64,000 nt of DNA from Symbiodinium sp. CCMP2592 (taxonomy: Eukaryota > Sar > Dinophyceae > Suessiales > Symbiodiniaceae): assembly GCA_905221615.1 (NCBI GenBank), contig CAJNDT010003223.1:496001-560000 (forward strand), read 5' to 3'. A model generated the notes under the pieces. That model had not been told where the DNA came from and searched no databases. It worked only from the letters and a program-made list of their open reading frames with translations. The translations under genes and the position numbers were made by a program. Positions 1 through 27,681 of this stretch are shown one piece after another. Numbering within the stretch: the stretch's first letter is position 1; each line of letters opens with the position of its first letter.

Positions 1-1
1 C

Positions 2-6055: not shown

Positions 6056-6060
6056 GACAT

Positions 6061-7852: not shown

Positions 7853-8640
7853 CTACTTCCTCATAGCCTTGGATTTCAGATGGACCTTCCTGACGGAGCT
7901 GGAATGATTTTTCTTGGTAGAGGACGACGTAGACGAGGCGGGGCGACGACAGACATACTTGTGGGAAGTGGGCTTTCGCAGTACGCGAGCAGCCCTGGCG
8001 ATTTCGGCCTTCGCGCTGAAGGCGTTCAAGTGCTTCATGTAATTGCGGCGCATGAGAAGGTTGTGCCTCTTGACGTAGACCAGGACAAAGAGCATGTGCG
8101 AGTTCATGGCCTTGGTATTGAAGGAGGAGGCGTAGTTGCGGAACCAAGAGAACGTTTGCTCGGCAATGGACGAGTTGACGTTGCGAAGACGTAGATCCAG
8201 GCGCCCATGACGCAGAGGCGAGCATTCACACTTCGGAGAGTGAGCCCTGGCGTAAACACGATCAATGCACCAGTACTTGATGTGGTTCAATGGCTTTTGG
8301 GCCCTTGCATGCTTCAGCAGGCGCACATCCTATCGTATATCACGCAGTCGATCTCGGAGCCTCGCGACACCATGTCAAGGAGAACGTTGGTGGCTGTCTC
8401 ATTATTTTCCGGATCTCGCATGGCAGACACGGACAGGACGAGTCCGGTCGAAGGATCAACTGCCATAAACCAGCCGTCCTGTCGTTGAGGAGTCTTTCCA
8501 TCCTTGCGTGGTCTCGGAGCACTTAGCAGCTACCTTCTGGTGCTTATCCATAACAACCTCCTTCACCATTCGCCATTCTCTTTTGTTGAGCTGGTTGTCA
8601 TGCCACCATTTCCTGTACGTCTCCGGAATTCTGCACGGTC
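7853..8640 (-). pseudogene. DDE-type transposase fragment (KDZ-like C-terminal half), frameshifted
   Basis: Read on the minus strand, pieces in different frames join into one protein-like series: MDKHQKVAAKC (about 8,545), GWFMAVDPSTG and RDPENNETA (about 8,400-8,480), IDCVIYDRMC (about 8,315-8,345), IKYWCIDRVYARAH (about 8,245-8,285) and VNSSIAEQTFSWF (about 8,145-8,185), then a basic tail ending at TAG 7,853. The order D, C-x-D...H, A-E-Q-T-F-S-W is that of a DDE-type transposase core; I associate it with Kyakuja/Dileera/Zisupton-like or related families, and the exact family is not certain. At least two frame changes are needed (near 8,540 and 8,322). The N-terminal part is missing, replaced by helicase sequence. 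The natural stop and basic tail are still present. Confidence 0.65.
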
Positions 8641-9705
8641 TAGGAACACCCCACAGTCCAAGGTTGAGCTTGCTTCACTTCCAAACAATGCCTTATCCAG
8701 GATATAGTGTCCATTCCCTTGCCGCTGCCGCCCTTCCCTACCAAGAAGAGAATCCTGGACGTGCAGACTTGAGCAAAGGCTGCTTTCATGAAGCATAGCT
8801 TAAGCTGCAGAGCGTGCTCGTTGTCGAAATAGACAGACTCCAGGAATGTTCGGAGCACATTGCGAAAATCCTGAATCGAGATGCCTGGGTGGTTTTGCAG
8901 CGTCTCCTCATAGAAGTACGGATAGCCAATGCGAAGGTAGCAGTCATTTGCCCGACTTTTCGTAGACACCTGCCAGGTCGCGTTGAGGTAGAGGTCGCTG
9001 GAGCAGACTCCTTGTGAGCGAGGCAAGGCTGTATCCCACTCTACGAGGAAGAGCTTCGAAAGCGGGGCGATAGTGCTGCACTCATCATCCCACTGCATCC
9101 TATACGACGCGATCATTTCCGCCACCCGCCTCGACCACTTCGCTTTCCAGACTTTGTTGGAAGTCGCCACACGAAGACGGTCGATGTTCGACTTTGCAAC
9201 GAGCTCAAGATGGTCGACCAATGTCTGGGAAACATTACTCTCAGCGTGTCTGCGACAGACATAAAGCTTTTGCTCGTCGGCAGCATCTTAGATCCCTGAA
9301 TGAACAAGCCCTCCAACGCCAGGAGAATGTGCCAGGCCTTGATTCGCAGACCGTCGACCATGCGCCAAGCGCCGTCCTCGTAGTGAAAGATTTGCTTCTG
9401 ATGCGCACGCCATGTGTGTGGCTCCATGAGCATAGCAAAGGCCAACTTTTGTTTGTTGGACATAAGTTAAGGTAATTGGCCATATGCGCTTCGCACAGGA
9501 ACCTGGCCATGTTGACAAGCTTGCGCACATCATCCTGGTACATGGAGTAGTTCTCATTTGACCATACAAGATAAGCCTCCACCTTCTCCTTCATGCCATC
9601 TTTCGGCTGGACATCCGGTAGGACGACATCAGGGGGAGCTTCGTCAGCATTATCCCACTGCATGTCCGAGAATGCCTGAAACCTTGGTGCGTCGGCAACA
9701 CACAC
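8641..9705 (-). pseudogene. SF3 (D5-like) helicase remnant, frameshifted and 3' truncated
   Basis: The minus strand carries a helicase-like protein in four frame pieces: 9,705 to about 9,465, 9,463 to about 9,220, 9,221 to about 8,700, then about 8,700 to 8,640. The clearest mark is a Walker A loop, LFLVGKGGSGKG (about 8,716-8,751), in the context expected for superfamily 3 helicases of viruses, plasmids and mobile elements. Just before it is the typical helix CFMKAAFAQ. After a one-base frameshift the frame continues ILDKALFG...TLDCGVFLD, then stops being helicase. Walker B, the SF3 C motif and the Arg finger are therefore absent. Upstream FHYEDGAWRMVD (about 9,370-9,400) fits the pre-helicase domain. 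It cannot make a working helicase as it stands. The second copy is identical. Confidence 0.75.
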
Positions 9706-10102
9706 AACATTATCAAAGCGTCTTCACTGCATGACTGCATGACTGACTGCAAGAGGATGTCTGAGGACACAACAGGTTGCGAACATGCAGGCGGTTCGCA
9801 GGTGGAGGAGGGGCTTCCGGCGACGAGATGCCCGCACTTGATTTTCTCCTTTTCTTGCCGCGCATGTGCTTCCGGTCGTAGACGTGCTATCTTCATTCTC
9901 TCAAGTTCCAATTCAAGCTGCTTCTTCTCAATATCTTTGTCCGTGGAGCTGGGCTTCTGACACATAGCCAAGTCCTTCACAGTCTGTTTGGCAGTGGTCG
10001 TCGTCGCAAATGCATCACTACTCTGGCTGCTGCTTTTGTCTTCTTGCATTTGCATCTATCGATGCCCCACGCGCCACATGTTGAACATCTGCGTCGAGCC
10101 AT
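9706..10102 (-). pseudogene. Probable N-terminal leader of the helicase remnant: zinc motif and coiled coil
   Basis: Upstream of the helicase frames, the minus strand reads from ATG at 10,102 as MARRRCSTCGAWGIDRCKCK, a compact C-x2-C...C-x-C cluster. A frame change follows, then a Ser/Thr-rich stretch and a charged helix (DIEKKQLELELERMK, about 9,890-9,940) likely to form a coiled coil. Frame changes are again needed. Linking it to the helicase rests on position and strand only. Confidence 0.4.
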
Positions 10103-10433
10103 TCTGCAAACTATCTCTACTGACGATGGCTGAACATAGACTTTTGCAAAACTGCAGCAACATGCACATGAGGCATGCGGTAACATCTTATGCTCGCGGC
10201 GCAACTGGAAATAGAATAGAGACGTGAGTACAGTAGCAACGCATAGACAGCTTGCATACTGCATGTTGTTGCTTTATGGAAAATATTTGCTAACATGTGC
10301 TAATATGCCTTTAACACAAATACAAACGTACATACGCACAAGCACTGACGGCCCTGCGTCGCGTGGACGCAGAGGCAAAGACCTGCAGCGAGCACGTCCC
10401 AAGCGTACAAAGAAAAGGAAAGAGTGTGCATCC

Positions 10434-10499
10434 GGGGGGGGCGGGCTCGGCCAAAAAAAATCAAATATTGTTGTTTTTGTTTGGCCGCCCCGCCCCCCC
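10434..10499. repeat. GC-rich hairpin (inverted repeat)
   Basis: Left arm GGGGGGGCGGG..CGGCCAAA and right arm TTTGGCCGCCCCGCCCCCCC pair almost fully around an A8/AT-rich loop of about 25 bp. It lies about 330 bp upstream of the minus-strand helicase leader. Both copies have it (27,616-27,681). No gene is seen between 10,103 and this hairpin. Confidence 0.8.
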
Positions 10500-11040
10500 A
10501 GTGTCTCCTAATGATACTGATACAACACCCTGCACCGTGGAATACTCACATATCCAGTACCTTTATGAATTGTATATACTATATACAACTATACGTAGAT
10601 ATTGTTTTCATTCCTTGCTGCTGTATTCAATATGAAATACGATCGTAAAGGATATGAATGGATATGAATAAGGTAAACTCGTAGCAAGTGCATCTCCCAA
10701 CAAACCCCAAAGAGATAATATACACCAATACCTCTTGCCCTCCAACCCTAAAAACGCAGGCCCGTATTATGTTGTTTTCTGTAGGTTTAAGGGCTTAGGG
10801 TTTAGGGTTGTTTCTTTAAGGAGCTCCTTTTCAGGATCTTTGAAGGAAGCCTTAAAGAGAACCCTAAGCCCCGAAGCCCTGCAGCCCAAACTGTCTGGTG
10901 CTCTTTTCGGCTATGGGTAGGCCCTAAACCGTCACCTCCCAAAAGCCTGATAGGGGCCACGAACCCGAATGCAGACACGCGTAACGCAGATATCGCATCC
11001 CCTAAGGAAAATAACCGGAGAAGGAATCAGGGCAGCACCA
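10500..11040. other. No gene; first telomere-like heptads
   Basis: AT-rich start with ATATACTATATACAA and GGATATGAATGGATATGAATA, then GGGCTTAGGGTTTAGGG near 10,790 and CCCTAAG/CCCTAAA near 10,860-10,930. No coding signal is seen. Confidence 0.5.
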
Positions 11041-11780
11041 GAGTCGTTCCCCCTTAGGTTGACGGATTCAAAACGCGCGCGACACGCGCGTGAAGTTCCC
11101 CCTTAGCTTGACGGATTCAGAGCGACACCTCTGGGGTTACCGATTCCCCCCTTAGCTTGGCGCGCGACACGCGCGTTCTGCGGAGTTCCCCATTCTTAGC
11201 TTGACGGATTCAGCTGCCGGAACACGCCTCCTGTGAATTCCTCCCCCTTAGCTTGACGGATTCAAAACGCGCGCGACACGCGCGTTCTGCGGAGTTCCCC
11301 ATTCTTAGCTTGACGGATTCAGCTGCCGGAACACGCCTCCTGTGGAGTTCCCCATTCTTAGCTTGACGGATTCAGCTGCCGGAACACGCCTCCTGTGGAG
11401 TTCCCCATTCTTAGCTTGACGGATTCAGAACGCCGTCGGACGCGCCGCCGCCGGGCTTGACGGATTCAGAACGCCGTCGGGATGCTGCCGGGACGCTGCC
11501 GGAACACGCATCCTGTGGAGTTCCCCCTTAGCTTGACGGATTCAGAACGCCGTCGCACGTTCTGTGGAGTTCCCCATTAACAGCTGCCGGAACACGCCTC
11601 CTGTGGAGTTCCGCCTTAGCTTGACGGATTCAGAACGCCGTCGGGACGCACCGCCGTCGGGCTTGACGGATTCAGAACGCCGTCGGGACGCTGCCGGTAC
11701 GCCTGTGGAGTTCCCCCTTAGCTTGACGGATTCAGAACGCCGTCGGGACGCGCGTTCTGTGGAGTTCCGCCTTAACAGCG
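11041..11780. repeat. GC-rich minisatellite built on CTTGACGGATTCA
   Basis: Twelve copies of TTGACGGATTCA, spaced about 40-90 bp, alternate with variable spacers: GCTGCCGGAACACGCCTCCT, AGAACGCCGTCGGGACG, TCTGTGGAGTTCCCC and the near-palindrome ACGCGCGCGACACGCGCG. Several spacers are multiples of three, so a frame reading LTDSERRRDA repeatedly stays open; it has no ATG and I do not call it a gene. The array is identical in copy 2. Confidence 0.85.
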
Positions 11781-12372
11781 CTGCGCGACACGCCTCGCGT
11801 CACACGCGGACGCTTTGCGAACGCTTTGTCAACGCTTGCGGACGCTTTGCGGACGCTTCAACAACGATCGCTGGTCACCTGCTGGACCCCTGGAGCCCAA
11901 CCTTTCAAACGGGAACCCTTCTGCGCAGCATTCGGGAAAAGAAACTAAAACGATGCTTCCAAGGATCTCCCGTGGGTCTCGGAGAGCAGGAGGAGCCTAG
12001 GATGGCTTGCGGCTTAAAAAAGAAAGAGTTGGTTTCGGGGTGCAACCCATAATGAGGAAGTAAAACGGATCGTCTTCGAAAGTGTTAGGTTTCCATACGG
12101 CCTCTTGGAGGGCTTTGGCACTGAGTTAGGCTCGAGGTGTTGATGGTTTGGGGGTTTGGCGGCTTAGGCTTTAGGGATCAGGCTCTGGTGATCTATGGGT
12201 TTAGCATTGAGGGTTTTGAGGGTTCAGGGCTGCTCTGCACAATTATGATTTTGGTGTTCGAAATATTGGAAACTGGGAAGGCTGATCCCCATCTTGCTCT
12301 GCAAGGGCTCGGGGCTGAAGCCCTATCTAGCAACCTGGGAGGTGGATTGCGCTTGAGTGGGGAAGGTAATGC
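11781..12372. other. No gene; short GGACGCTTTGC repeats, then telomere-like text
   Basis: 11,800-11,865 has four or five GACGCTTTGC/AACGCTTTGT units. 12,120-12,240 is rich in GGGTTTAG/GGGTTTTG variants. No coding signal is seen. Confidence 0.5.
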
Positions 12373-12473
12373 AGGGGCCTTAATAATTAGAATAGGGTTT
12401 TGGGGCTGATTATACTATAATATATTTATTTCAAGCAGCCCCCAAGATAGTGTAGGGCATTGTTAAGGCCCCT
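12373..12473. mobile_element. Family E palindromic element (E1)
   Basis: 101 bp with inverted ends AGGGGCCTTAA / TTAAGGCCCCT and inner matching GGGTTTTGGGGCTG / CAGCCCCCAAG around an AT-rich centre (TATACTATAATATATTTATT). Related copies lie at 29,555, 32,753, 46,107 and 56,534. Non-autonomous hairpin type; no coding capacity. Confidence 0.75.
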
Positions 12474-12574
12474 ATATTGAAGCGTCTGGCTGCAGGCAGA
12501 AGCTGCAGGGTTTGGCGCGAATTTCCGCACCTTGGGGACTTCAGGTTGCCTGCTTATGACATGGACGCTCCATG

Positions 12575-12683
12575 CCCAGAGACTCCAAAATCCCTTAATT
12601 AAGGAATATTCCTTAAATCATATTAGGGATCCTACTATAATTTAAGGTGTATTCCTTAATTAAGGGATATTGGACTCTCTGGG
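12575..12683. mobile_element. Family A palindromic element (A1)
   Basis: 109 bp, a near-perfect palindrome with ends CCCAGAGACTCC / GGACTCTCTGGG, inner arms TCCCTTAATTAAGGAATA and centre GGATCC. It is flanked on both sides by TG, a possible 2-bp target duplication. It lies in opposite orientation to A2, A3 and A4. Confidence 0.85.
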
Positions 12684-13305
12684 TGGTTGCGGGCATCCCC
12701 GACACCGCGACCCTCCAAACCCGAAGTTAGTATCGGCATCGATGGATGATGCTAACTTGTTTTATGCTCTTGCCGCAGGCTTTAGCTCGCCCTTCCAGGG
12801 GGACTGACGACTGCTGCTGAGAAGGCCGGTATGTTTCGTACTCTCAATTGGGGGTATTTGCTCCGACCGGCGCTACCGTTTTTCTGCTGCTACCCTAACT
12901 ATCATCATGTCGAGTCTCATTCCCAATTCTAGGCTAACTACTAAGAGTGCGACTACTACTGCAACTGCGACCTTACTACTACTTACCACGCATTACTTGC
13001 TACATACAACGTACTACATACTACTACCTACCGTAGGTCAAAGACCAAACCTCACAACCACCTGGGAAACGAAGTATAAGCTGGCATTTAATATAATACA
13101 AGAAACAGGTTAAAACTAGCAGGCATGCTTGCACGGTACTTCAGAACCCAGCATATTACCAAGACACCGTAAAATCCTTAACCCTGAGCGCCGAACCCTA
13201 AACCAAGAAAACACCTCAAGTCTCTAGCCCTGGACTTTGAAGTAAAGCATTCAGGGTTTAGGGCCTAGGATTTTTTTTCTAGGGTTTAGGGTTTAGGGCT
13301 TAGGG
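12684..13305. other. No gene; ACT-rich stretch and telomere-like text
   Basis: 12,930-13,040 is rich in CTACTA/TACTAC. 13,170-13,210 carries CCCTAAACC, and 13,254-13,305 carries GGGTTTAGGG units including CTAGGGTTTAGGGTTTAGGG. No coding signal is seen. Confidence 0.5.
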
Positions 13306-13390
13306 TACTTGGAGGGTCGGGGGACTTAGTAAGTAGGTAGTAAGTAGACTTATAAGTACCCTAAAAGGGACCCTAATTGGGGTTATGGTA
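13306..13390. mobile_element. Family C palindromic element, cut by the assembly gap (C1)
   Basis: Left arm TACTTGGAGGGTCGGGGGAC, inner ACTTATAAGTACC, loop and the first four bases of the right arm. It matches 30,488-30,572 exactly. The sequence stops just as the right arm begins. Confidence 0.85.
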
Positions 13391-13490
13391 NNNNNNNNNN
13401 NNNNNNNNNNNNNNNNNNNNNNNNNNNNNNNNNNNNNNNNNNNNNNNNNNNNNNNNNNNNNNNNNNNNNNNNNNNNNNNNNNNNNNNNNN
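13391..13490. other. Assembly gap (100 N)
   Basis: Exactly 100 N, the usual placeholder for a gap of unknown size. The order and distance of the two flanking contigs are therefore assumptions of the assembler. Confidence 0.99.
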
Positions 13491-13491
13491 A

Positions 13492-14175
13492 GCATTCCTG
13501 ATCCTGTTTGGTCATCGTGCCGTAATGAGCACACGATCAAACTTCCGTAGCCGTGATGGACACTCCCTACCCAGGGCAGTACAGGCGTACCATGAGCGAC
13601 ATCCACACATGGATAGCTCTTACCCCGAGTCTCGTCGGGACGCATCACGTCGACACACCGAACACGGTGGACACCGATTTCACAAACGTGAGAAAAATAA
13701 CGAGCCTCCATACATTTACATGGGTCACCAACAGGTGTTCAATCCGCGTCCAAGAGATCTTGCTGACCTGATCTTACGATGTGGCCATGCGAGTCGAGCA
13801 GGGCTCACTCCAATCTCCAGACATGGAGTCAGGCTCTACGAAGGAGTCCTTCAAGGACCATGGGACAACAGTCCCCTTTTATACTGGGATAACAACGTGG
13901 GTAATCACGCTCGTGATGCACGCCAGTTTTGTACGATGCTTGCACATCACCTTCAGACTGGCCTCCCACAGGAGGTAAAACAATGTGTGAGTCTTGATGC
14001 ATCTGGAGAATATGACTATTCCTCCTCATTGCCAAGACTGGCAGAGGTAACAGGTCTCTCACCAGAGATGTGCTTCCACATTCTTCCAAGACAACAGGTC
14101 GGAGGTGGTTGGCACACTCAACAAGACACCTTTCAGAACCAGTCACCAAGCTCTCTTGCTGGCCAACACAATTAA
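13492..14175 (+). CDS. 5' part of polyprotein: possible N-lobe of a Tpt1/KptA-like RNA 2'-phosphotransferase
   Basis: The frame is open up to the gap, so the start is uncertain; the first ATG is 13,525. The first 80 residues are basic and His/Arg-rich. DLADLILRCGH (about 13,756-13,788) is followed by a stretch ending LDASGEYDYSSSLPRL and GLSPEMCFHIL (about 13,990-14,085). That spacing (small helical lobe, D-x-x-G turn, then a helix) resembles the N-terminal winged lobe of Tpt1/KptA, which removes the splice-junction 2'-phosphate from tRNA using NAD. The Arg-His pair expected in the first helix is not clearly present. The frame runs to TAA 14,173-14,175, but a GT-AG intron from 14,098 would remove that stop and join this exon in phase to 14,269. 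Weak homology; the family call is an inference. Confidence 0.5.
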   Translation, partial: AFLILFGHRAVMSTRSNFRSRDGHSLPRAVQAYHERHPHMDSSYPESRRDASRRHTEHGGHRFHKREKNNEPPYIYMGHQQVFNPRPRDLADLILRCGHASRAGLTPISRHGVRLYEGVLQGPWDNSPLLYWDNNVGNHARDARQFCTMLAHHLQTGLPQEVKQCVSLDASGEYDYSSSLPRLAEVTGLSPEMCFHILPRQQVGGGWHTQQDTFQNQSPSSLAGQHN

Positions 14176-14268
14176 ATCTTCTGGGAATTGTCCAAGTTGC
14201 CGATGCAAGAGCTGCACAGTATAAACCACCAAGAGCGCGGCTGGTGTTCTCCTTAACACTAAGTCCAG
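14098..14268 (+). other. Candidate spliceosomal intron (171 nt)
   Basis: Donor ACAACAG|GTCGGA and acceptor AAGTCCAG|GTTTTC. The length is 171 nt, and it contains every stop in the frame between the two exons (TAA at 14,173, and TAA-CAC-TAA near 14,255). Splicing gives PRQQ-VFVVTRS in one frame. Both junctions carry the same CAGGT, as in introner-type insertions. RNA evidence is needed; a pair of frameshifts is the alternative. Confidence 0.5.
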
Positions 14269-16710
14269 GTTTTCGTGGTCACTAGGTCGATAACCAGATG
14301 GCAAGGCCGAAAACAACAGATGCCGCCGTTTACAATACCACAGGATGAAAATGTGTTGACCATGACCAAACTTTACCTATCGGCAGTGGGAGGACACGGT
14401 TCACGACGAACTCTACCAAGAGCTGAAGAACCAGATCCCGAAGAAGAGAGGCCAAGGTCACACATGACCATCTCAGACTTCATGGCAACGGGGAGCAATC
14501 CTGTGCAGTCCCATGCACAGCGTCTCTCCACTACCGCGCCAAGGCCCGTAGGCATGGAAGATTTTGTTCGACAGAACAACCCTTGTTACATCATGCATGC
14601 CACGGACTTACAGGCATTATCCTCAATCCTGAGGCATGGTCTGGTACCATCAAACCTCCTATCACAGGTGGTTACCTCACCAGGTCTTCAAGCACTCGTG
14701 AACGAAAACAGTCGTTCCAACAGGGACACTGTTCAGTTTTCAGCGCTAAACCTGGCGAATCCTAATCCGACTTTGCTGCGTGCCAACAAGGCACTGCTTC
14801 TAGTATTTGACGCAAATAACGTAGTGAACGAAGTCACAAACATGTGGCAGTCGCAAGCAGGGATGTTTGCTACACCAGATGTAGTGCATGCCCGTACTCT
14901 TAGCGCCGTATTTGCACCCTCTGAAACACTCTGGGTATCATCGCAATACGATGAGCTCAAGAGCATCGGACCATGGTGGGCAAACCACTGCTCCGAACAA
15001 ATGCCGTCAGCGACTTACGAGTCGAAGAAATGGTGCTCAAATTACGGCAAGGAGATCGAATCGACACTTCGCAAGATGTCAAGGCGAAATCTGCCTCCAG
15101 AGCCTCCCAAGGCTAGATCTTCTCACAAGAAGTCTTTCTCTCTGCCAAATACAGAGGCTGACACAGCTCCAAACCTGGAGCAAACCGCTTCTGCAGGTGA
15201 AGTACCTCCGAAAACGGAGACTGCTGCAAGGGAGATCCATCCGAGATCCAAGCTCGCCCGGCAGGCCGAGGCCGACAAGGATCCGGACAGTCTTATGGGA
15301 CAGCTCTGGAACTCAGACGGCACCAGAAGCGCCACTGAAGTTCTTAAGATCACGACAGGTCACAAACCTCCAGAACCTGTCCAGGATACTTCTGCCAATG
15401 TAGTTCCTCCCAAGGAAGAATCTTCTGGAACAGAGACGGAACCTGAGGAACCAGATCCTAACCAGGACTGTGACGAAGAATCAGACGTTGAGTCGGCATC
15501 AAGCGAAAAGAGCGAGAAGAGCGAAAAGAGCTCAAAATCTTCGTCATCCTCAGAACTTCGAGTTGATGTTAATCCGTCTCACAAGACGAACTCTGCACCT
15601 GCATCGTCAGAGGAGAAGAAAGAATCTCCCACGGAAGAGATCACAGAGAAACTTGAGAAGGTCAAACTTGACCAACCAAAGCCTGAAACAGAATATGTTC
15701 AGAGTTCAGCCGAAGAGCCAAGGAAACCAAAATCTCCTAAAAAGGAGAAGGAAAAATTCCTAGTTCTCTTCGATCCTGAAACAGAAACTTATTATCGAGT
15801 CAACAGAAGCAATCTCAACCTCGAATACGAGGAGCCTGCTGATGAGGAAGACCTCGTAAGAGAACATGAGCGCATCAGCGCTCGAATTCGAGAAAATACC
15901 AAGCACCGAATCTCGAAGTCACCGTCTAACCCGGCTATGCAACAGGAAATGCAAGAGAGAATCTGGGTTAGTCAAAAAAAAAAAAAAATCCGAAGTCCAC
16001 TCATGATCAAAGATTCTGAGGCTCCTGACGAAGAGGAGTGGGACAGACCCAGAGAGTCGGCATCTTCCTCCTCTGCACCTCCTAACAAGGAGAGATTTGT
16101 AGGAGTACGCAGGACAGCCATGAGCCTTAACCAAAGAATACGAATGTTGCCTCGACCAGACAATCCTCTCTGCGATCTCTGCAAACAGCCTACAGGCTAC
16201 TTTTGCTATTCCTGTGGAACGATTGTATGTGCAGATTGTCGACTTACCCCACAGGGTAAACAACGGATGTGCGAGGGCGTCTTGCCAATCGATTGCCTTG
16301 AGACCTCCAAAGTGAGAGCAGGAATGACCTCAGAAGAGCGTCAGTTTTTATACGAGGCCATCCTCACACATGAGGACGTAGATTGGGCAGTCCAGAAAAT
16401 CAACATGTATTGCGAACACGCAAGAAGTCTGTTCGAAAAGGACCATCCAGGCGTTGATCCATACAGCCTTGATGATATCAGGAACAATCCTCCGAATACG
16501 TATGACAGCTCCACAGAGGCTCCAACCCTGGAGGAATATAAGAGCATTAACAAGAGTCACATCAATATCAAGGACTCTAGAACAAGCCACCCGGCTTCTT
16601 TTCTCTCTCTTACTGGCCACGAAGACAAACTGGTGCTCGACGCACATTACGAGATAGTTCGCAATAGGATGGCCGGTGTTAATGAGAAGAGAGAATACAT
16701 TGAAGGCTAA
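14269..16710 (+). CDS. Polyprotein middle part: Tpt1/KptA-like C-lobe, acidic linker, paired-Cys zinc module
   Basis: The first internal ATG is 14,320, but the frame continues from the exon before if the intron is real. CYIMHATDLQALSSILRHGL (14,584-14,643) resembles the start of the Tpt1/KptA catalytic lobe (Y-H-G-T...I-L-x-x-G-L). It is followed by TVQFSAL, KALLLVFDANNV and FATPDVVHARTLSAVF (to about 14,935), matching the order of NAD-binding strands in that family. 15,100-15,900 is a Glu/Ser/Lys/Pro-rich linker, surely disordered. At 15,974-15,987 fourteen A in a row encode part of QKKKKI. CDLCKQPTGYFCYSCGTIVC (16,171-16,230) followed by ADC is a B-box/MYND-like zinc module. The frame ends at TAA 16,708-16,710, and the same frame is open again immediately after. 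The Tpt1-like call is moderate; the zinc module is clear. Confidence 0.6.
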   Translation, partial: VFVVTRSITRWQGRKQQMPPFTIPQDENVLTMTKLYLSAVGGHGSRRTLPRAEEPDPEEERPRSHMTISDFMATGSNPVQSHAQRLSTTAPRPVGMEDFVRQNNPCYIMHATDLQALSSILRHGLVPSNLLSQVVTSPGLQALVNENSRSNRDTVQFSALNLANPNPTLLRANKALLLVFDANNVVNEVTNMWQSQAGMFATPDVVHARTLSAVFAPSETLWVSSQYDELKSIGPWWANHCSEQMPSATYESKKWCSNYGKEIESTLRKMSRRNLPPEPPKARSSHKKSFSLPNTEADTAPNLEQTASAGEVPPKTETAAREIHPRSKLARQAEADKDPDSLMGQLWNSDGTRSATEVLKITTGHKPPEPVQDTSANVVPPKEESSGTETEPEEPDPNQDCDEESDVESASSEKSEKSEKSSKSSSSSELRVDVNPSHKTNSAPASSEEKKESPTEEITEKLEKVKLDQPKPETEYVQSSAEEPRKPKSPKKEKEKFLVLFDPETETYYRVNRSNLNLEYEEPADEEDLVREHERISARIRENTKHRISKSPSNPAMQQEMQERIWVSQKKKKIRSPLMIKDSEAPDEEEWDRPRESASSSSAPPNKERFVGVRRTAMSLNQRIRMLPRPDNPLCDLCKQPTGYFCYSCGTIVCADCRLTPQGKQRMCEGVLPIDCLETSKVRAGMTSEERQFLYEAILTHEDVDWAVQKINMYCEHARSLFEKDHPGVDPYSLDDIRNNPPNTYDSSTEAPTLEEYKSINKSHINIKDSRTSHPASFLSLTGHEDKLVLDAHYEIVRNRMAGVNEKREYIEG

Positions 16711-16758
16711 AACCCAGACAGCGTATCGCTAAACCTAGTGGTATTCAACTGGGGAAAT
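16708..16758 (+). other. Single in-frame TAA linking two halves of one reading frame
   Basis: After TAA (16,708-16,710) the same frame reads NPDSVSLNLVVFNWGN before the first ATG (16,759). V-V-F-N-W-G has the look of the first strand of an EEP nuclease (hydrophobic-x-W/F-N). That places the domain start upstream of the ATG and suggests the stop interrupts what was, or is read as, one protein. Confidence 0.55.
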
Positions 16759-19700
16759 ATGGATCGAGCGCCGGTGCCCGCAGGGAATCCCAAAAAGAAG
16801 CTCAAACCTGAGCAGGGATTCGATTATCACCCTCTTATTGACATGTGCTTCAACAATTCAGCTCATATTACCCTCGTACTCGAGGCAGGAGCACTTGCGT
16901 CAGAGTATTCAATCGCAACCATGCGAAAACATGAATACAGGGGGATGCTAATCCATTCTCCTCCCAAGGAGCCTGAGGCACCCTCAATGTATATTGGAGT
17001 CAAGGGTGACCCAACAACAGACATTGCTCTCGTCCACCACTTTTACCGTCATCGGACAATGAAGCCTAAGAATGGTGGTCCCAAGAAGCGACTGTGGGCA
17101 TGCCACGGTGCGGTATGCCGCCTCACATTTGGGTACCACAGTACCATACCAGAGGCAAAAGAATGGGTCCACCCATATTCTGGCCAAAGGATGACGAGAG
17201 ACGAGTTCATGCAGATTATCGTATATGACCCACTCAAGGGCAAAAATCCTGACAAGGATGGACCCACTGATGGCTCTTACCTCTCACCAGAGGCGTGCCT
17301 GACACTGTCGAACCTCGACCCCTCGCCTATTCTCTGTGAATGGAACGGCCATGTCGAGGGTGATGAGCCACCAGAGGAAGACTTTGAGTCATACGCAGAG
17401 ATCTTCTCACAAGAAGCATCGAACGATCTTGACGAGATGTGGTGTACAAAAGGGCCTTACAAGGTCATCACCATCGCGATCGTCCATTTCAACTCATTCA
17501 TGACTCATAAGGAAGAACAGAGACGCGAACTGGTGAACGCGTTCCTCAACGAGATTCTCCCTTTTAAACCGGATGTAATAGCGGGAGCTCTCAATAATAT
17601 TGCGTCGAGGCTCACCTTAAAAGGTGGAGACGTTCACCCGCGAAACAGTTTGTTTTCTCTATACCTGGAGAAGAAACTTGCAGCATTCAACAAAATAGCA
17701 GGAAGGCACTCACAAGTGCGACATCTTTGCTTGAACAACACCGACCAGCACAGACTGGCACGTGCAGATCGTCTACCGGCGGACCCGGCGAAGAAAGTTG
17801 CTGACCTTGACTGTATCAACAGTTATATCCTTGACTGGAGGAAAACGCCGCACACGGCGTCACCTAGTCCAAGAGAGGTCACACCTGCCGCTGAAAGAAC
17901 ATACTGGGAACGAATCTCAGATATGTGGCAGGACACGAACAACAACAGGGATATTGATATCCGTCTGTTTGTCTCAGTCAAGCAGTACTATTCAACCTTT
18001 TCTAACCTTGACCTATGGTTGAGTCCCTCTGACAAAGATTGGCACAGCCCTTTGGGCTTCACGATACAACCAATCCTTACAAAAGGGAAACACAACCGTT
18101 CAGATGCCCAGGTCCAAAAGATCGCTGACAAGCGAAAGGCTTACAAGCAGCGTAATGCTGAATACTGGGGTTACAACGATTCATTCGTTTACTCATCCGG
18201 CAACAGCTGTTACGACAAATCGCAACCATCAGGTAGCCATCACAGATATGGAAGATTCTGGGAGTGGCCACAGCCTGAACGTCCCAGCGAGCCTGAAGGT
18301 CCTCCTCCAAGAAGGAACCAGGAATCATCGTCCTCTTCACAACAAGATCTACCCAGATCAAGGTCCAGGCCTCAAAGAACCAATATTGTTGACAAGCTCA
18401 ACATGTCTTTGGAAGAGCTGGATGGACTAGAAGAAGAACCGTCACCAACAAAAGGTGACATCGAAGAACACGAAAGAGAAACATCAAACTTGATGTCTGC
18501 TCAGAGAGATGAAGAGGAACAAGAGGACGAATCCTCCAGCCGGAGAAGAAGAAGGAAGGCATCGCGTCCACCGTCTGCTCCGAGCGGCAAGGCACTCAGA
18601 TCAGCTGCTACAGCAGCGGGATTGTCGGGCTGGTTCGGACACCGCAACCGAGGTGGAGCAAACGCAGAGTCTATCAAGACTGATGAAACTTCACTTCCAA
18701 ACTCACTAACCAGTGAGCAGGACTTCTCCGTCTTCAGCATCGCATGGAATGTGTTCTTGCTGCTAATGGGCTTACACTGGATGTGGAAGCAGATTACCAG
18801 GCCTCCTATCAGATGTATGGAGCGCCAACAACCAAAATCAAAAGCAGCAGCGAACCAAAGAGTTGCATTCCTCGAACCCGAGGATGAACCGCAGACGCGT
18901 GAACCTTTAGGACCCAACAGGGTCAATTCCGGAGAAACAACTGATCTGCGACCTATCTGGCATACTTCCCGAAGCGAAGTCTACCATCTCTCGGACAGCT
19001 GTTACCAGCTCAAGCAAGCAAGAGATGTTTGCAGGAAGGTGCTGTGCAAAAACTGCCTCCATGCAGTACAAGTTGCGGAGATTCGCAGGAACGATCCTTT
19101 TCAAAGAGGTGATACACGTCCACGTGGCACCGAAAGAGACATTGATCGCTTCCAGACCTACGATGATGCAAGTACCACTCCTCATATGACGCAATTATTC
19201 AAAGATGCATTGCATGCACAAATGGCCGAAGAAGCCATGCAGATTACCTATAAATCGATCCCCAAGGGATCCTCGGCAAAAGCCAAAGGTACATCTGCAC
19301 TCTCAAGTGCCGCATCGTCGTCAGCGCCCAAGGCAATGCCACCAGGGCCTAACAAGGCAAACATGTCACCTCCACCTAAGAGTCCTCCGCCAAAAGCGAA
19401 AGGAACAGTACCTTCAGATCCTCCAAGACCAAAAGGTCCTACCAGAAGAGGAGGTCAAAATCGGCGCATTCAACGAAAGGCAGCCAGAGAAGCCCACAAC
19501 AGTGGACTCTGCACCTATGCAGACGCTGCACTTAACGAAGCCAATCAAGGCCAGGCAATTAACGTTACGTGCCGAAACATGGCAGCAAGACACGTCAGCT
19601 CTATCGATGCAACGGTAGAAGCAGCCGATCAGTTTACACAACGCGTGCTACAGCACGTAGAAACATATGATGAAGAGGAACCGTGGAGCACGGAGTTTCT

Positions 19701-20448
19701 ACCAGTCGTGGAAGTCCTATTCAGGAACTCAAGCGGCGACGAAACAACTGTCATACATGACAATCAAACGGTAACTATGCCTCTTACGAAATACACAGAC
19801 CTCCTCAGAATCGCACAATCATTGCGAAGCTCTATCCAGAGAGACAAGGAGGAAAGGAAGGAACATCTTGACACCATCCAAGCTACTCTATCCAGAGTGG
19901 AAATCCTTCTAACAGCACTGAAGGACTCAAGGACAGTCTTTAACCAATTGGTCCATTCCTCACTAGAGATAGAGCGAAGAAATAACAATCGCAAAAATGT
20001 CCTCGAGACACTCTTTGACGACCAAAGCTCTGAGGAAGACCAATCAGAATCTGACAATGAAGAAGTCCTAACTCCTTCTGCACCACAGTACTGGAATAGC
20101 CTTTATGCCCACGCCTTATCTCCTCCAGGAGATGAAAGTGAAAGATCATGGGCGTCCTCAGACGGACAGCTTGAAAGAAGAAGGGCTGAACGGGCAAAGG
20201 CTAAGCAGCCGCAACCGGCAAAAGCCAAGGCAACTCCAGCCAGCTCACAAGCTGCTCCAAAGGCCGAGCCAAAGGCGACAACATCCAACCATGGATATGA
20301 TACGGCAGACGCCGCCTTCACCAGGGCGGAGAACAGATTACTCGGAATCTTTTCAAGTTCCGAAGAAGACCACTCAGACCCGGATGAGCCACATCCGAAC
20401 GTCTACGCTCGAGCCTATGATCCAAACCTGGATCCAAATCTGAGATAA
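16759..20448 (+). CDS. Copy 2 of the EEP-nuclease/coiled-coil half of the polyprotein, nearly full
   Basis: 1,229 residues from ATG 16,759; the frame is open back to 16,711. The EEP-like domain occupies roughly residues 1-330: FNWGN just before the ATG, ITLVLEAG with Glu42 (16,882), a strand pair SMYIGVKGD, WACHGAVCRL, then ITIAIVHFNS and VIAGALNN. In the last motif the Asp of copy 1 is Ala277 (codon 17,587-17,589), which should abolish metal-dependent catalysis if this is the EEP Asp. Then follow a Ser/Arg/Glu-rich linker, a hydrophobic helix (residues about 658-677), YHLSDSC...LCKNC (about 740-768), a Pro/Lys/Ala linker, a coiled coil (about 1,025-1,088) and an acidic tail. The end is TAA 20,446-20,448. 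No reverse transcriptase, protease or integrase motif was seen. Silent changes exceed expectation against copy 1, so the protein was under constraint for part of its history. Confidence 0.7.
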   Translation: MDRAPVPAGNPKKKLKPEQGFDYHPLIDMCFNNSAHITLVLEAGALASEYSIATMRKHEYRGMLIHSPPKEPEAPSMYIGVKGDPTTDIALVHHFYRHRTMKPKNGGPKKRLWACHGAVCRLTFGYHSTIPEAKEWVHPYSGQRMTRDEFMQIIVYDPLKGKNPDKDGPTDGSYLSPEACLTLSNLDPSPILCEWNGHVEGDEPPEEDFESYAEIFSQEASNDLDEMWCTKGPYKVITIAIVHFNSFMTHKEEQRRELVNAFLNEILPFKPDVIAGALNNIASRLTLKGGDVHPRNSLFSLYLEKKLAAFNKIAGRHSQVRHLCLNNTDQHRLARADRLPADPAKKVADLDCINSYILDWRKTPHTASPSPREVTPAAERTYWERISDMWQDTNNNRDIDIRLFVSVKQYYSTFSNLDLWLSPSDKDWHSPLGFTIQPILTKGKHNRSDAQVQKIADKRKAYKQRNAEYWGYNDSFVYSSGNSCYDKSQPSGSHHRYGRFWEWPQPERPSEPEGPPPRRNQESSSSSQQDLPRSRSRPQRTNIVDKLNMSLEELDGLEEEPSPTKGDIEEHERETSNLMSAQRDEEEQEDESSSRRRRRKASRPPSAPSGKALRSAATAAGLSGWFGHRNRGGANAESIKTDETSLPNSLTSEQDFSVFSIAWNVFLLLMGLHWMWKQITRPPIRCMERQQPKSKAAANQRVAFLEPEDEPQTREPLGPNRVNSGETTDLRPIWHTSRSEVYHLSDSCYQLKQARDVCRKVLCKNCLHAVQVAEIRRNDPFQRGDTRPRGTERDIDRFQTYDDASTTPHMTQLFKDALHAQMAEEAMQITYKSIPKGSSAKAKGTSALSSAASSSAPKAMPPGPNKANMSPPPKSPPPKAKGTVPSDPPRPKGPTRRGGQNRRIQRKAAREAHNSGLCTYADAALNEANQGQAINVTCRNMAARHVSSIDATVEAADQFTQRVLQHVETYDEEEPWSTEFLPVVEVLFRNSSGDETTVIHDNQTVTMPLTKYTDLLRIAQSLRSSIQRDKEERKEHLDTIQATLSRVEILLTALKDSRTVFNQLVHSSLEIERRNNNRKNVLETLFDDQSSEEDQSESDNEEVLTPSAPQYWNSLYAHALSPPGDESERSWASSDGQLERRRAERAKAKQPQPAKAKATPASSQAAPKAEPKATTSNHGYDTADAAFTRAENRLLGIFSSSEEDHSDPDEPHPNVYARAYDPNLDPNLR

Positions 20449-20992
20449 GAGAATCTCAGAGTTTCACAATAGTGACTCACAAAGCTCTAACAAGAGCAAA
20501 GTGAAAGGCTGCATAATTCGATGTAGAAAACATCACCAGACATGATCTTGTACAGATGATCTCTCTGACTAACATGCATGAGTGTGTGTGCAAAATGAGT
20601 GGAGTGTCCTCAGCAGTGTACTTCAGTGCTATACATAGCATAAAACAATATGCTGTTTTTATAATGAGTCCAAACTCCGCAACTGTGACAGTGGGCATAA
20701 CAGTATATGTGTGAATGTGCGGCCATGCTTCCGGTAAAAGAAATTAGATGTATGTTGAACCCATAAACCTCTTAAAGGGGGCTATAAGGTACTACAGGCA
20801 ACGGCTGCATGCTCATTACATATACATTCGCTGCCACCTTGGCTCCAGTGGTTTTACCATATTGAGACAAGACAAGATCTCCTGAGTTAGCAGACAAAAC
20901 AATCCTTGTCCGTGTGCAGGGCGCTGACCGTGATCACTAGGGAATACTGGTTACACCTCCTCACAAGGAGTATCATTGGGGGTTAGCGGCAA
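20449..20992. other. Non-coding 3' flank of copy 2 polyprotein
   Basis: Counterpart of 3,329-3,882. There is no gene. It differs from copy 1 increasingly from about 20,740, mostly by single-base indels. Confidence 0.6.
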
Positions 20993-21468
20993 CAGGGAGG
21001 GGGAGAGGGGAGAAGGGAGAGGGGAGGAGAGCGGAGAGGGGAGAGGGGAGAGGGGAGGGGGGCGAGGGGAGAGGGAGGGGGAGAGGGGAGAGGGGGAGAG
21101 GGGAGAGGGGAGAGCGGGGAGAGGAGGGGAGAGGGGTGAGAGGGGAGAGGGGAGAGGGGAGAGGGGCGAGGGGGAGGGAGGACGGGGAGGGAGAGGGAGA
21201 AGGACAGGGAGAGGGAGAGGGGAGAGGGAGAGGGGAGAGGGGAGAGGGCAGAGGGGAGAGGGGAGAGGGGAGAGGGAAGAGGGAAGAGGGAAGAGGGAAG
21301 AGGGAAGAGGGAGAGGGAGAGGCAAAGGGAGAGGGAGAGGGAGAGGCAGAGGGAGAGGCGGCGAGGGCGAGGGCGAGGGAGAGGGAGAGGGAAAGAGGAA
21401 GAGGGAGAGCGAGAGAAAGGGAGGAAATGGGGGGAAAGGAAAGCAGGGAGGAAGGAAAGAAGAAGGCA
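20993..21468. repeat. GA-rich low-complexity tract, copy 2
   Basis: About 475 bp of GGGGAGA/GGGAGAGGGA units, some 60 bp longer than in copy 1 and with a different order of variants. The open frames over it are compositional only. Confidence 0.95.
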
Positions 21469-21594
21469 AGGGCGCCAAAAAAGAAGAAGGCAAAAACGCA
21501 AGCAAACGAACAAACAAGCAAGCAACCAAGAACTCGAGGAAACAAAGGGAAGAAATATATAAGGAAAGTCAATAAGCACAAAGCAGCAGCAACA

Positions 21595-21865
21595 CAAGGA
21601 ATAACGGCAAACAGAATAGATATGTAGATGTGCCTGTGTGTATGCGTGTATATACCTCTACTCCGCTCAGACACCTGAAAGGTGAGCCGGCACTTACAAG
21701 GAATAGCGGATTAAAAAAAACAGATATGTATATGTGCATATGTGTATGCATCTATACTCCTCTACTCCGGTCAAGTACTTGAAATTCCAGTCAGATACCT
21801 GCAACGTGAGCCGGCGCGCACAAGGAATAGCGTCTTTTCGACAGATATGTATATGTGCATAGGCC
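21595..21865. repeat. Imperfect tandem repeat, copy 2 of 4,415-4,685
   Basis: Units start with CAAGGAATA at 21,595, 21,697 and 21,821; identical to copy 1. Confidence 0.8.
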
Positions 21866-23040
21866 TGTTCTCTTCATGCGTGGCCGACACGAAACAACCC
21901 AAACTGCGAAAACGCTGCAACTCAGTTCATGCTGCTCTTCACGTTGCTGGGGTCCGCGTGTCAGGTGGCCTCCTCTGCAGTGAGAGCTGTCGTCGGCGTA
22001 TTGGCCTTTGGCTATGCTGCAGTGGAGATGCTCGTGGCTAGCTGGGGGGCTCGGCTCCCGGTGCACATCTGTGAAAGTGCAATGCTGGCTCACACATGGA
22101 CACGGGGCAACTGTTACAAACCGTGAGCACATGTCGAAATGGGCTCGGCCTTGCGCGATGCGGACGAGCGATGCGTATCGCACACATAGCACTTCTTCTT
22201 CCTGCGCGAATGGTGGGGGGAGTTTATTCGTCGTAAGAGGGATTTGAAATCGTTGGCAGACCAGTCGCGGTTTGACATTGCTGATTACTTGGAAACCAAA
22301 CTCCACAGTGCGGAAACTGACACTTGGACGGCGCTGGCGGCAGTACTGGCAGCAACCGCCGCAACTTTATTTTTTGTCTTGAAGTTTTTATGCTGCCAAC
22401 ATGTCCGCCGACCGACAGGTCTGATAATTATACAATGCGTGTGCGTATATACATCTACATGTGCAAGGCACAGGAGTGCAGTCCCGGCCGTCCACCAGCC
22501 CAGCTGCACGCCGGCTGCTTTGCCAGCGGCCCTGAGGGGATTGCTCCCGGCGGTCTGCTGGCAGTCGGCAACCATACAGCGCATAGCAGCGATGAGACTA
22601 TACTTCGGGCAGGCCTCTACAACTGTGCTGTGATGCTGCTAATGGGTTCGTCCAGAGATCCCAAGCTTTAAAAAGGATAAACCTAGCAGCAAGCGTGCCA
22701 ACAACTACATGCTGTATGGTGCCGAAAAGTGTTGGGTCTGCAGTCGCAGTTTTTACAGGGTGTAAAAGATGTTAGGATTCGGGGTTGAGGTTTGGCGGGT
22801 TGTGAGTAAACTGTGCCTCCGTGATGCATCCATTGTCGCACCGCCCAGCTGTGGCGCAGCTGAATAGCTCCAGGAGCAACAAGAAGCATAATACAATCCC
22901 AACGTCAAATGCCAAAGCTGGTTCATGTGCATTGAGAGCATTGCTAACGTGAGCTTATTTCGTGTGAATGCATGTCGAGTTTAGGCCTGGTGGCTTAGCA
23001 TAAGTTTTTTGTTACAACTACTACTGCACTTACTTCCACT
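21866..23040. other. No recognisable gene (copy 2 of 4,686-5,860)
   Basis: Identical to copy 1; nothing supported. Confidence 0.5.
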
Positions 23041-23702
23041 ATACCTCCTACAATATATACTGTATATACTATATATACTGCATATACTAAATATGTACTC
23101 TATATATATAGTAGAAATATTATATGAACTATATATATATATATAGAGTACATATTTAGAATACATACTATATAGACTAGATTTACTAAGTATACTACAT
23201 ATATATATATATATACTCTATATTTAATTTATATACTGACATACTACCGACCCTCCTTTCTTCCTTCTTTCTTTTCGTCCTTGCTTCCTTCATTCCTTCC
23301 TTTCCTCCCTTCTTGCTTTGTTTCTTTCTTTTCTTCCTTCGATCCTTTTTCCTTGCTTCCTTTCCTTCCTTCCTTCCTTCCTTCCTTGTGTCCTTGCCTT
23401 CTTGTGAAGAAGTCAGGAGGCCAGGCCAGGTCCAGAAGCCAGGAAGCCAATTAGTGTTGACGCAAAGAAGGCCAACAAGACAGCAAACCAGGAAGGAAAT
23501 CCCATAAACCAAGAAGCCAAAAGATGACAACAAACCAGCAAGGAAAGCCAAAAAGCCGAGAAGCAGAAAGCAAAAGCAAAAAGCAAAACCAGTAAAAAGC
23601 AAAGGCAGAAAACAACAGGCCAACGCCCAAAAGCCGAATAAGCAAAAGCGAAAAACAAAAAAAATTCACCAAAAAAACAAAATAAATTCCTCAAATAATT
23701 AG
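23041..23702. repeat. AT-rich, CTTC-rich and A-rich simple sequence, copy 2
   Basis: Same order as 5,861-6,520: TATA-type sequence to about 23,237, CTTC runs 23,243-23,398, AAGCCA/AGCAAAA runs 23,422-23,702. The TA run near 23,215 is 2 bp longer than in copy 1. Confidence 0.85.
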
Positions 23703-25034
23703 GATTCCTGCCACAATACGAAGTGCACGGCAGATACGCCGGCGCTTGTAAGCGAAATGAAAGAATTTATTGAATTTGAGCAATTATTTAATTACTTTAT
23801 ACATCGTTCCAGCTTTTTCTGTAATTTCGGGTGCAGAGCCGACTTTCCGTGTTCTGATTCCCCTATGTCTTGACTCGTTGAAGGTTGTGGCGTGCGAGTG
23901 CTCACATTTAATCTCTATTGCAGGATCTCAGTAAATCCGCATTACGCAATGACTTGGATTGAAGATGGTCAGCTAATCTATCTACATGTATGTCTGTAAT
24001 ATTAGTGTAGGTACAAAAAGCAAACCTCCAGGTGTAGAATGGACTTTCTATGCAGCACCTGGCATCTAGTCTATGACATGGCGCGGCAGTATATGACATT
24101 GTATACAAACCCGACACGTGTTGAAAAGATAAGGCTTCCACGGTTCCTTATTGAGGGCAAAATAGATGTGACCGCTAGGTTGGGGATGCTGGAGAGCCCT
24201 GCCGCACAGGTTTGCGAACGCCACAAGCCTCGACGCCCGAACTCTGAGGGCCGCTACCCAAGTACCTGGCAAACAGCGCGGGTGCCAACCTCATGCGGTT
24301 TGAGAATGGAGTTTGCCAGCAGACGAGGCACGTGGCATGTTTGCAGTGATTGAGTCAATGCAGTGAGCAGCGCACGTCGAACATTTTGACTGCCCTTGGT
24401 GCGGCCTCGCCTGAATCTGGGTGTGAAACATCTGCCGCAGAGCAGCTCTCTACACGGAACCAGTCCGGCAACTGCTCCACACAGCCGTGGAGACCCAGTC
24501 CCGAACATCCTCATAAAAATTCACTTTGCTCTACAGCTTGTTCATACAAGCATCTCGTGACTGCGTTGCCTGCTTCAGGGACTGAATCTCAGCGTCCCAC
24601 TCCTGAGGTTGAGCTTTTGAAGAAGCTGAGGTCGTGACTTCAGGCAGGTTATATTCTTCTCATCGCACACGACATGTAGCAAATGCAAAGCAGCCATTGA
24701 TGTGCAAGAACTTAGCAATACTTTTCCTTCGCAGTGTGGAAGTCCAGGCGACAGAAGTCGTCAAGAACTGTAATCTTGCATCGTCAGACTCCACATATGT
24801 TGTATTCTCATTCTCACTATTGTCGTCACCCTCACACCACCAGACATGGCAGCATTACTTTACATTAAGTTTAACTATACATTGGAACACAACTAACTAT
24901 CGATACGAAGACATGCTCTGCGTCACATAATTGCACGCATACCTGTGTGGAAGTGACTATGACATACATGTGAGATCAGCCTGGAGTCTGTGATCACATG
25001 ACACATAGACAAAAACAAGCTAGACAGCACTACT
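23703..25034. other. No recognisable gene (copy 2 of 6,521-7,852)
   Basis: Identical to copy 1. Confidence 0.5.
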
Positions 25035-25822
25035 CTACTTCCTCATAGCCTTGGATTTCAGATGGACCTTCCTGACGGAGCTGGAATGATTTTTCTTGGT
25101 AGAGGACGACGTAGACGAGGCGGGGCGACGACAGACATACTTGTGGGAAGTGGGCTTTCGCAGTACGCGAGCAGCCCTGGCGATTTCGGCCTTCGCGCTG
25201 AAGGCGTTCAAGTGCTTCATGTAATTGCGGCGCATGAGAAGGTTGTGCCTCTTGACGTAGACCAGGACAAAGAGCATGTGCGAGTTCATGGCCTTGGTAT
25301 TGAAGGAGGAGGCGTAGTTGCGGAACCAAGAGAACGTTTGCTCGGCAATGGACGAGTTGACGTTGCGAAGACGTAGATCCAGGCGCCCATGACGCAGAGG
25401 CGAGCATTCACACTTCGGAGAGTGAGCCCTGGCGTAAACACGATCAATGCACCAGTACTTGATGTGGTTCAATGGCTTTTGGGCCCTTGCATGCTTCAGC
25501 AGGCGCACATCCTATCGTATATCACGCAGTCGATCTCGGAGCCTCGCGACACCATGTCAAGGAGAACGTTGGTGGCTGTCTCATTATTTTCCGGATCTCG
25601 CATGGCAGACACGGACAGGACGAGTCCGGTCGAAGGATCAACTGCCATAAACCAGCCGTCCTGTCGTTGAGGAGTCTTTCCATCCTTGCGTGGTCTCGGA
25701 GCACTTAGCAGCTACCTTCTGGTGCTTATCCATAACAACCTCCTTCACCATTCGCCATTCTCTTTTGTTGAGCTGGTTGTCATGCCACCATTTCCTGTAC
25801 GTCTCCGGAATTCTGCACGGTC
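25035..25822 (-). pseudogene. DDE-type transposase fragment, copy 2
   Basis: Base-for-base repeat of 7,853-8,640, with the same frame changes: GWFMAVDPSTG near 25,650, IKYWCIDRV near 25,460, SIAEQTFSWF near 25,335, stop at 25,035. Since the lesions are shared, they predate the duplication or both copies derive from one sequence in the assembly. Confidence 0.65.
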
Positions 25823-27615: not shown

Positions 27616-27681
27616 GGGGGGGGCGGGCTCGGCCAAAAAAAATCAAATATTGTTGTTTTTGTTTGGCCGCCCCGCCCCCCC
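27616..27681. repeat. GC-rich hairpin, copy 2
   Basis: Same arms as 10,434-10,499 (G8CGGG...CGGCCAAA against TTTGGCCGCCCCGC7). The region 27,682-28,222 that follows is gene-free, like copy 1. Confidence 0.8.

Follow-up and report, generated by a model that had tools for sequence, protein, structure and literature searches.

A long second reading frame with Tpt1-like and EEP-like regions in a probable Ty1/copia-type retrotransposon that inserts into G-runs in Symbiodinium

Ty1/copia retrotransposons carry long terminal repeats (LTRs) that begin with TG and end with CA, encode the integrase ahead of the reverse transcriptase in pol, and generate a 5-bp target duplication. Here we describe a retroelement of Symbiodinium sp. 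CCMP2592, parts of which lie in a 64,000-nucleotide stretch (“the window”; contig CAJNDT010003223.1, positions 496,001 to 560,000), and whose second open reading frame (ORF2) combines a Tpt1-like lobe, a zinc finger and an EEP-like region. We favor, at a probability of about 0.88, the explanation that ORF2 is the second open reading frame (ORF) of a Ty1/copia-type LTR retrotransposon of ~15.9 kb that inserts into G-runs, and that it is accessory to the mobility of this element. The element shares with Ty1/copia the RVT_2 reverse transcriptase, the TG...CA LTRs, the position of integrase before reverse transcriptase and what appears to be a 5-bp duplication. It differs in its large size, in the 2,321 amino acids (aa) of its second ORF and in its near-absolute insertion into G-runs.

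Extra sense ORFs between pol and the 3′ LTR, for example env-like genes, are known in LTR elements (PMC7264820). ORF2 has the position and sense of the extra ORF of env-like or Sirevirus-type elements, but differs in its length and in having a Tpt1 lobe, an EEP-like domain and a B-box. LTR retrotransposons of bdelloid rotifers have an enzymatic ORF3 that encodes a GDSL esterase or a DEDDy exonuclease (passages of PMC5408684, the main text of which does not contain the word “phosphotransferase”). As portrayed there, they share with the present element an enzyme-coding extra gene beside pol, but are retrovirus-like families with other enzyme folds. In Symbiodinium, SymbioLINE-Dnmt and SymbioDIRS-Dnmt3 have captured methyltransferases, Exo_endo_phos is among the domains named in a figure legend, and Copia elements without DNMT are reported (passages of PMC5890265). 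These are likewise dinoflagellate retroelements with captured enzymes, but they are LINE and DIRS elements, and the passages mention no Tpt1. Assignment of our element to LINEs with an EEP endonuclease (RVT_1, no LTRs, target-primed) is excluded by its RVT_2 domain and LTRs. A heat-activated Ty1-copia element is known from S. microadriaticum, as cited in passages of PMC11453091. A literature search on Tpt1/KptA in retrotransposons and on poly-G or G-quadruplex targets of LTR elements, with most subscription journals and preprints outside its scope, returned no such element, target or architecture in the titles and abstracts of the matches listed. An earlier note on the window, made from its letters alone, did not recognize the architecture as a described family, and it remains an unusual one.

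Copies, LTRs and coding capacity of the element

We searched the window's own genome (1.098 Gb, 5,383 contigs), scoring only the best candidates; some loci may have been assembled twice. The EEP-like stretch recurs at 98-100% identity in at least 98 scored places, the window copy included (931 first-look candidates), and a shorter query at 99-100% identity in at least 150 (844 candidates). Because the near-identical genomic places are many, and many of them hold ORF2 as one uninterrupted 2,321-aa frame, the frame is more than a product of chance. Ten copies with an uninterrupted ORF2 of 2,318-2,321 aa were examined over 20 kb each, and for two of these the reading was extended to the 5′ end. 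The alignment of this pair covers 15,992 positions at 98.6% identity and reaches ~30-40 nt past direct LTRs of 249 nt that begin with TG and end with CA. Recent, dispersed copies thus have the order LTR-pol-ORF2-LTR.

In both end-to-end copies, an unbroken first ORF (ORF1) of 2,652 aa lies upstream of ORF2. Pfam analysis of one copy identified RVT_2 at residues 1262-1421 of ORF1 (E-value 3.2e-17, 63.4 bits, cut-off 31.6) and, before it, an integrase (rve) match at residues 241-330 that is below the Pfam cut-off (E-value 0.025; 0.0088 on a segment). Ten copies were read over 9 kb upstream of the EEP-like stretch, and all ten carry identical motifs of integrase (zinc and catalytic), reverse transcriptase and RNase H, as searched with patterns derived from a single copy. 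The earlier note had described a polyprotein without reverse transcriptase and had considered that a partner enzyme might exist. The partner is found upstream in the same element; what the note took for a polymerase-less protein belongs to a retroelement that does encode a polymerase, which the window copy lacks because a 100-N gap falls exactly at the ORF1/ORF2 junction.

The sequence TGGTAGCGGAGCC, a putative initiator-tRNA-like primer-binding site, stands 6 nt after the 5′ LTR in 18 of 20 cases; of the other two, one is blank and one shows a neighboring LTR. Within copies, 185-248 bases of the paired LTRs could be aligned, with 0-4 mismatches and 0-5 gaps, and 7 of the 20 pairs are free of mismatches. 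On sequence grounds, the element is recently active.

Comparison of dispersed copies shows purifying selection on ORF2. The ratio of nonsynonymous to synonymous substitution (dN/dS) is 0.14 over the 45 pairs of ten copies selected for an intact ORF2. By segment, the EEP-like part has a dN/dS of 0.046 and the Tpt1 NAD lobe one of 0.121, and the value is 0 both for the B-box (zero amino-acid differences among ten copies other than that of the window) and for the membrane helix with the Cys/His motif. The values are higher for the stretch before the NAD lobe (0.285) and for the coiled-coil part (0.30). ORF1, compared in one pair, has a dN/dS of 0.109. The earlier suggestion of a retroelement or virus relic, or of a domesticated gene, is unlikely, because the LTR pairs are so few mismatches apart and ORF2 is under purifying selection.

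All ten copies contain the 20-nt sequence TAAAAGAAAATTNGTGTCTG at two places, one behind pol and one immediately ahead of the 3′ LTR (for example at L011:5649-5668 and L012:3024-3043), with a chance expectation of 0.01 per 10 kb. This duplication may represent a second polypurine-type signal, or a scar left by the capture of ORF2 between duplicate pol tails; both would fit.

Two further observations concern the coding region. Between integrase and reverse transcriptase, ORF1 residues ~1350-1545 (L011:1679-2266) have a methyltransferase-type look by eye (FLELYGGSPRMS, SPDHSQWSSW, ENPYYSRLW) and no Pfam match. At C5034:235194 and C4929:389464, ORF2 lies within longer open frames, of 3,989 and 3,814 aa, and the expected 3′ ends of both copies read N.

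Domains of ORF2

ORF2 spans 2,321 aa from stop to stop and ~2,307 aa from its first methionine. Its parts in the window copy are as follows.

13525 to 14172, forward strand: 5′ part of ORF2, from the MSTRS methionine to an in-frame stop of the window copy; the frame runs on unstopped in other copies
14263 to 16707, forward strand: second part, with the Tpt1-like lobe, an acidic Ser/Glu-rich linker and the B-box zinc finger
14557 to 14874, forward strand: Tpt1/KptA-like NAD (ADP-ribosyltransferase) lobe, with MHAT, RDTVQFS and RANKALLLVFDA (Pfam PF01885, BLASTP)
16159 to 16242, forward strand: B-box-like zinc finger, CDLCK...CYSC...CADC (Pfam PF00643, E-value 3.4e-5)
16711 to 20448, forward strand: third part, after the stop at 16708, with the EEP-like region, a membrane helix, a Cys/His motif and a coiled-coil-like C-terminus
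16711 to 18070, forward strand: EEP-like nuclease region, with FNWGN, LVLEAG, VHFNS, G(D/A)LNN and DKDWHSPLG
near 18721 to 18790 and near 18961 to 19065, forward strand: putative membrane helix and Cys/His motif, respectively, read by eye, as was the coiled coil

The earlier note had these motifs in order in one frame. In the window, 13492-20448 indeed has one frame phase, but the frame is not open: it has four in-frame stops, all TAA (14173, 14254, 14260 and 16708), and is divided into ORFs at 13348-14175 (counted as beginning inside the 100-N gap), 14263-16710 and 16711-20448. Many other copies do encode one uninterrupted protein with the motifs in that order. An alternative genetic code was ruled out as an explanation for the internal TAA codons, as other copies are stop-free at those positions; the stops may be assembly errors or decay.

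Sequence comparison supports homology between the Tpt1-like stretch and the Tpt1 NAD lobe. PF01885 matches it with an E-value of 0.088 in the window copy and 0.006 on the best segment of another copy, below the cut-off throughout; a reference Tpt1 of the same genome matches with 8.5e-40. Scored with a model built from E. coli KptA and three Tpt1 chains of the PDB, the lobe surpassed all 4,000 shuffled sequences (1,886 reported). When the full Tpt1 of the same genome was added to the model, the lobe scored 20-21 bits (E-values of 1e-8 to 2e-8 for one sequence), and none of 4,000 shuffles (2,024 reported) reached 20.2 bits. A two-sequence BLASTP comparison of the ORF2 of another copy with this Tpt1 gave 2.2e-5 over ORF2 residues 358-468. 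Of the pair of KptA-like lobes that the earlier note had proposed, the NAD lobe is thus upheld, but the RNA lobe was not detected.

An Arg-His-Arg-Arg tetrad is essential in Tpt1, according to passages of PMC6333775. Compared with Tpt1/KptA as described there, ORF2 shares the NAD-lobe homology, the Arg of R-x-x-V-x-[LF]-S (before VHLS) and the His of H-[GA]-T (HGT in Tpt1). It differs in that the His of VHLS is Gln (VQFS), the Gly of HGT is Ala (HAT), and the three tetrad members of the RNA lobe (Arg-His and Arg) could not be aligned.

Full-length Tpt1/KptA domains are themselves repeated in this genome (e.g., L097:3-1724, C10), with at least 152 matches (E-values of 8.6e-50 to 2.4e-23 for the best 150 of 1,550 candidates). 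Many score equally and lie in frames of 665 aa, and others in frames of up to 1,535 aa; some recur every ~10.1-10.3 kb on one contig (C890, C5312, C459). The single repeated Tpt1 ORF examined also has a weak PARP match, below the cut-off (E-value 1.7e-4).

The zinc module of the earlier note proved to be B-box-like, scoring 24.3 bits in the window copy vs. a cut-off of 24.1, and 23.9 bits in the C1724 copy.

Members of the EEP superfamily have the ordered catalytic motifs N, E, H, GDxN and (S)DH. All of these were found by eye, in order, in ORF2, and they are identical in the 15 loci read (of 19; the remaining four are on the other strand) apart from one residue. GDLNN occurs in 14 of the 15 loci, and the window copy alone has GALNN, with Ala for Asp. 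The D/A variation in G-D/A-LNN seen earlier is therefore real: the downstream copy of the window has GALNN and the overlapping copy at 2-3328 has GDLNN. A four-sequence EEP model applied to another copy gave p ~0.002 (8 of 4,000 shuffles scored as high or higher), and its best windows in ORF2 lie over VHFNS...GDLNN. The complete signature and this result are suggestive of an EEP-like domain, and in that respect the EEP-like pattern of the earlier note stands, but no Pfam or PDB match accompanies it. The annotated EEP protein YbhP of E. coli likewise barely matches the PDB (best E-value 0.0056).

Two other matches were dropped, one to kelch repeats in the PDB and one to RSS_P20 of Pfam in the C-terminal part (E-value 0.028 in the window copy, absent from another copy). 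Searches of NCBIfam and PHROGs gave nothing useful, and IMG/VR gave no confirmed relative.

Insertion into G-runs and possible roles of ORF2

We sampled the 3′ ends of 50 of the 98 listed places, hand-picked as 10 with intact ORF2, 20 mostly on long contigs and 20 more. Of these, 45 junctions were readable; three stretches had no LTR (two were all N) and two were mis-registered in the alignment, one of which, C5139, shows GGGGG. At least four of the first five bases after the 3′ LTR are G, or are C, in 44 of the 45, and 37 have pure GGGGG or CCCCC. Among 104,170 background positions, the corresponding frequencies are 3.8 and 0.34%. Three pairs of the 45 have identical flanks, leaving 42 distinct junctions, 41 of them in G- or C-runs. 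At the 5′ side, 23 ends were sampled and three excluded as they had no readable LTR start; 19 of the remaining 20 have four or five G or C. The G is on the strand of the element in 33 of the 37 pure cases and C in four (p 1e-6, duplicate loci uncorrected), and the run is exactly five long in 17 of the 33 GGGGG junctions. Insertion into G-runs is thus near-absolute, and the G usually stand on the same strand as the element.

The C1724 insertion is flanked by AGGGG at either end, and at C2201 AGAG comes after GGGGG; this is consistent with a 5-bp target duplication, the length of which is ambiguous within long G-runs. The exceptions are C291, with GTTTTT before the G-run, C5112, with CCCTT at the 5′ side, and C3824, where the left side has G but the right side C. 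Next to the insertions at L053 and L069, the far side of the G-run is occupied by the start or end of another LTR of this family, indicating that some G-runs took more than one insertion.

These data can be assembled into a tentative mobility cycle. From Pfam matches or inspection by eye, the products of ORF1 would be gag, protease, integrase, reverse transcriptase and RNase H. Reverse transcription would probably be primed at the initiator-tRNA-like site that closely follows the 5′ LTR. Insertion into a run of at least four to five G, with a 5-bp target duplication, would be the work of the integrase. ORF2 would be made separately from pol, because its frame differs from that of ORF1 and opens 185 nt past the last ORF1 codon. 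Most likely it would serve as a dedicated accessory protein of this cycle. Assembly or positioning of the protein would depend on its zinc, coiled-coil and membrane parts, and catalysis, as a nuclease or phosphoesterase, on its EEP-like domain. NAD, ADP-ribose or an RNA end would be the ligand of the Tpt1-like NAD lobe, which is probably not a canonical 2′-phosphotransferase.

Several observations weigh against this explanation. Only 3 of 10 copies have an ORF1 without interruption in the part that was read; in the others, ORF1 is split. Its gag and protease have no Pfam match and were identified by eye, from ILDSGC and a basic Gly/Lys-rich stretch in one ORF1; a protease pattern matched none of the ten upstream stretches, all of which start after the protease site. 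The purine-rich motif is separated from the 3′ LTR by 12 nt, unlike a classical, adjacent polypurine tract, and the choice of copies with intact ORF2 favors constraint in the dN/dS values. For the domains, hhalign of the Tpt1-like lobe with four Tpt1s gave a probability of only 27% (P 6.7e-4), and the search for an RNA lobe before the NAD lobe scored -1.6 bits, although a very divergent lobe is possible. The EEP-like region has no Pfam match up to an E-value of 10 and no relevant PDB sequence match, and its shuffle test is modest. Finally, neither of the two window copies, which are outside the junction counts, has a clean five-G junction; both are embedded in G-rich purine repeats.

To our knowledge, sequence-level target choice is rare among LTR elements, and a G-run-inserting element with a strand bias would be a clean system for asking how an integrase complex reads DNA. 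It is conceivable, though we consider it unlikely, that the large ORF2, with its EEP-like nuclease and Tpt1-derived NAD lobe, is what gives the copia element its obligatory, strand-oriented poly(dG) insertion. This would be a new route of target choice for an LTR element, in a genome with Tpt1 at no fewer than 150 places. As a targeting module, ORF2 would guide the integrase to G-runs or G-quadruplexes, which its EEP-like nuclease and zinc parts would recognize or nick. Such a module would explain both the site preference (44/45) and the orientation bias (33 G to 4 C), and the EEP part is among the more constrained of ORF2. EEP nucleases determine the target site in LINEs. On the other hand, TG...CA ends and a 5-bp duplication are made by integrase alone, and the known targeting of LTR elements works via tethering of the integrase; we regard a targeting module as improbable.

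About equally doubtful is a counter-defence role, in which the Tpt1-like lobe and the EEP-like nuclease would undo host marks on RNA or nucleotides (2′-phosphate, ADP-ribose) that block retroelement RNA or cDNA. The many full-length Tpt1 repeats of the genome, one with a weak PARP match, would accord with such a contest, but the key Tpt1 positions are changed in ORF2 and the RNA lobe is undetected.

The widespread presence of Tpt1 is called a longstanding conundrum in passages of PMC6333775, and a conserved accessory gene of some 2,300 aa with a Tpt1-derived lobe would be a lead on Tpt1 roles outside tRNA splicing.

An envelope-like protein acting on membranes or vesicles, as proposed for Sireviruses, is very unlikely: ORF2 has the envelope position and, by eye, one membrane helix and a coiled coil, but the single helix lies amid 2,300 mostly polar residues, no signal peptide was seen by eye, and enzyme-like domains precede the helix. 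That the polyprotein is a chance or misassembled fusion confined to the window, whose copy is duplicated, gapped and interrupted by four stops, is refuted by the intact ORF2 on many contigs and by purifying selection.

The window locus and its assembly

The remaining features of the window are listed here.

1 to 13390, forward strand: stretch repeating 17121-30572 at 98.6% identity and ending exactly at the gap
2 to 3328, forward strand: 3′ part of ORF2 of an upstream copy, with GDLNN intact
3636 to 3884 (end approximate), forward strand: 3′ LTR of the upstream copy, and after it a G-rich purine repeat
13391 to 13490, no strand: 100-N assembly gap, a run of N at the ORF1/ORF2 junction of the element
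20756 to 20994 (ends approximate), forward strand: 3′ LTR of the downstream copy, degraded or poorly sequenced, 84.5% identical to the 249-nt LTR, and after it a G-rich purine repeat

In the C1724 copy, the counterpart of window position 13491 is position 10781, which is 8 nt inside the ORF2 frame. The downstream copy, which begins at the gap and holds the frame singled out in the earlier note, is 96.3% identical to the C1724 copy over 7.6 kb (223 mismatches, 59 gap positions). To the left of the window, the upstream copy continues into a pol region and a 5′ LTR of its own; both of its ORFs are broken.

The two window repeats share ~8.9 kb of non-element flank with no substitution and two gap positions. 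Between their ORF parts, over 3.3 kb, there are 49 substitutions and no indel, and the LTR and microsatellite between differ much more. We conclude that 1-13390 and 17121-30572 are probably one locus assembled twice, a false duplication. This is preferred because the flank is near-identical while ORF, LTR and microsatellite have diverged, and because the repeat stops exactly at the gap. A true tandem duplication is unlikely, two overlapping contigs assembled in a row being simpler.

A scan of the window for DinoSL, Rfam families and tRNA gave no match. Many short, degenerate telomere-like arrays of the TTTAGGG type are dispersed over its non-element part, at 30744-62681.

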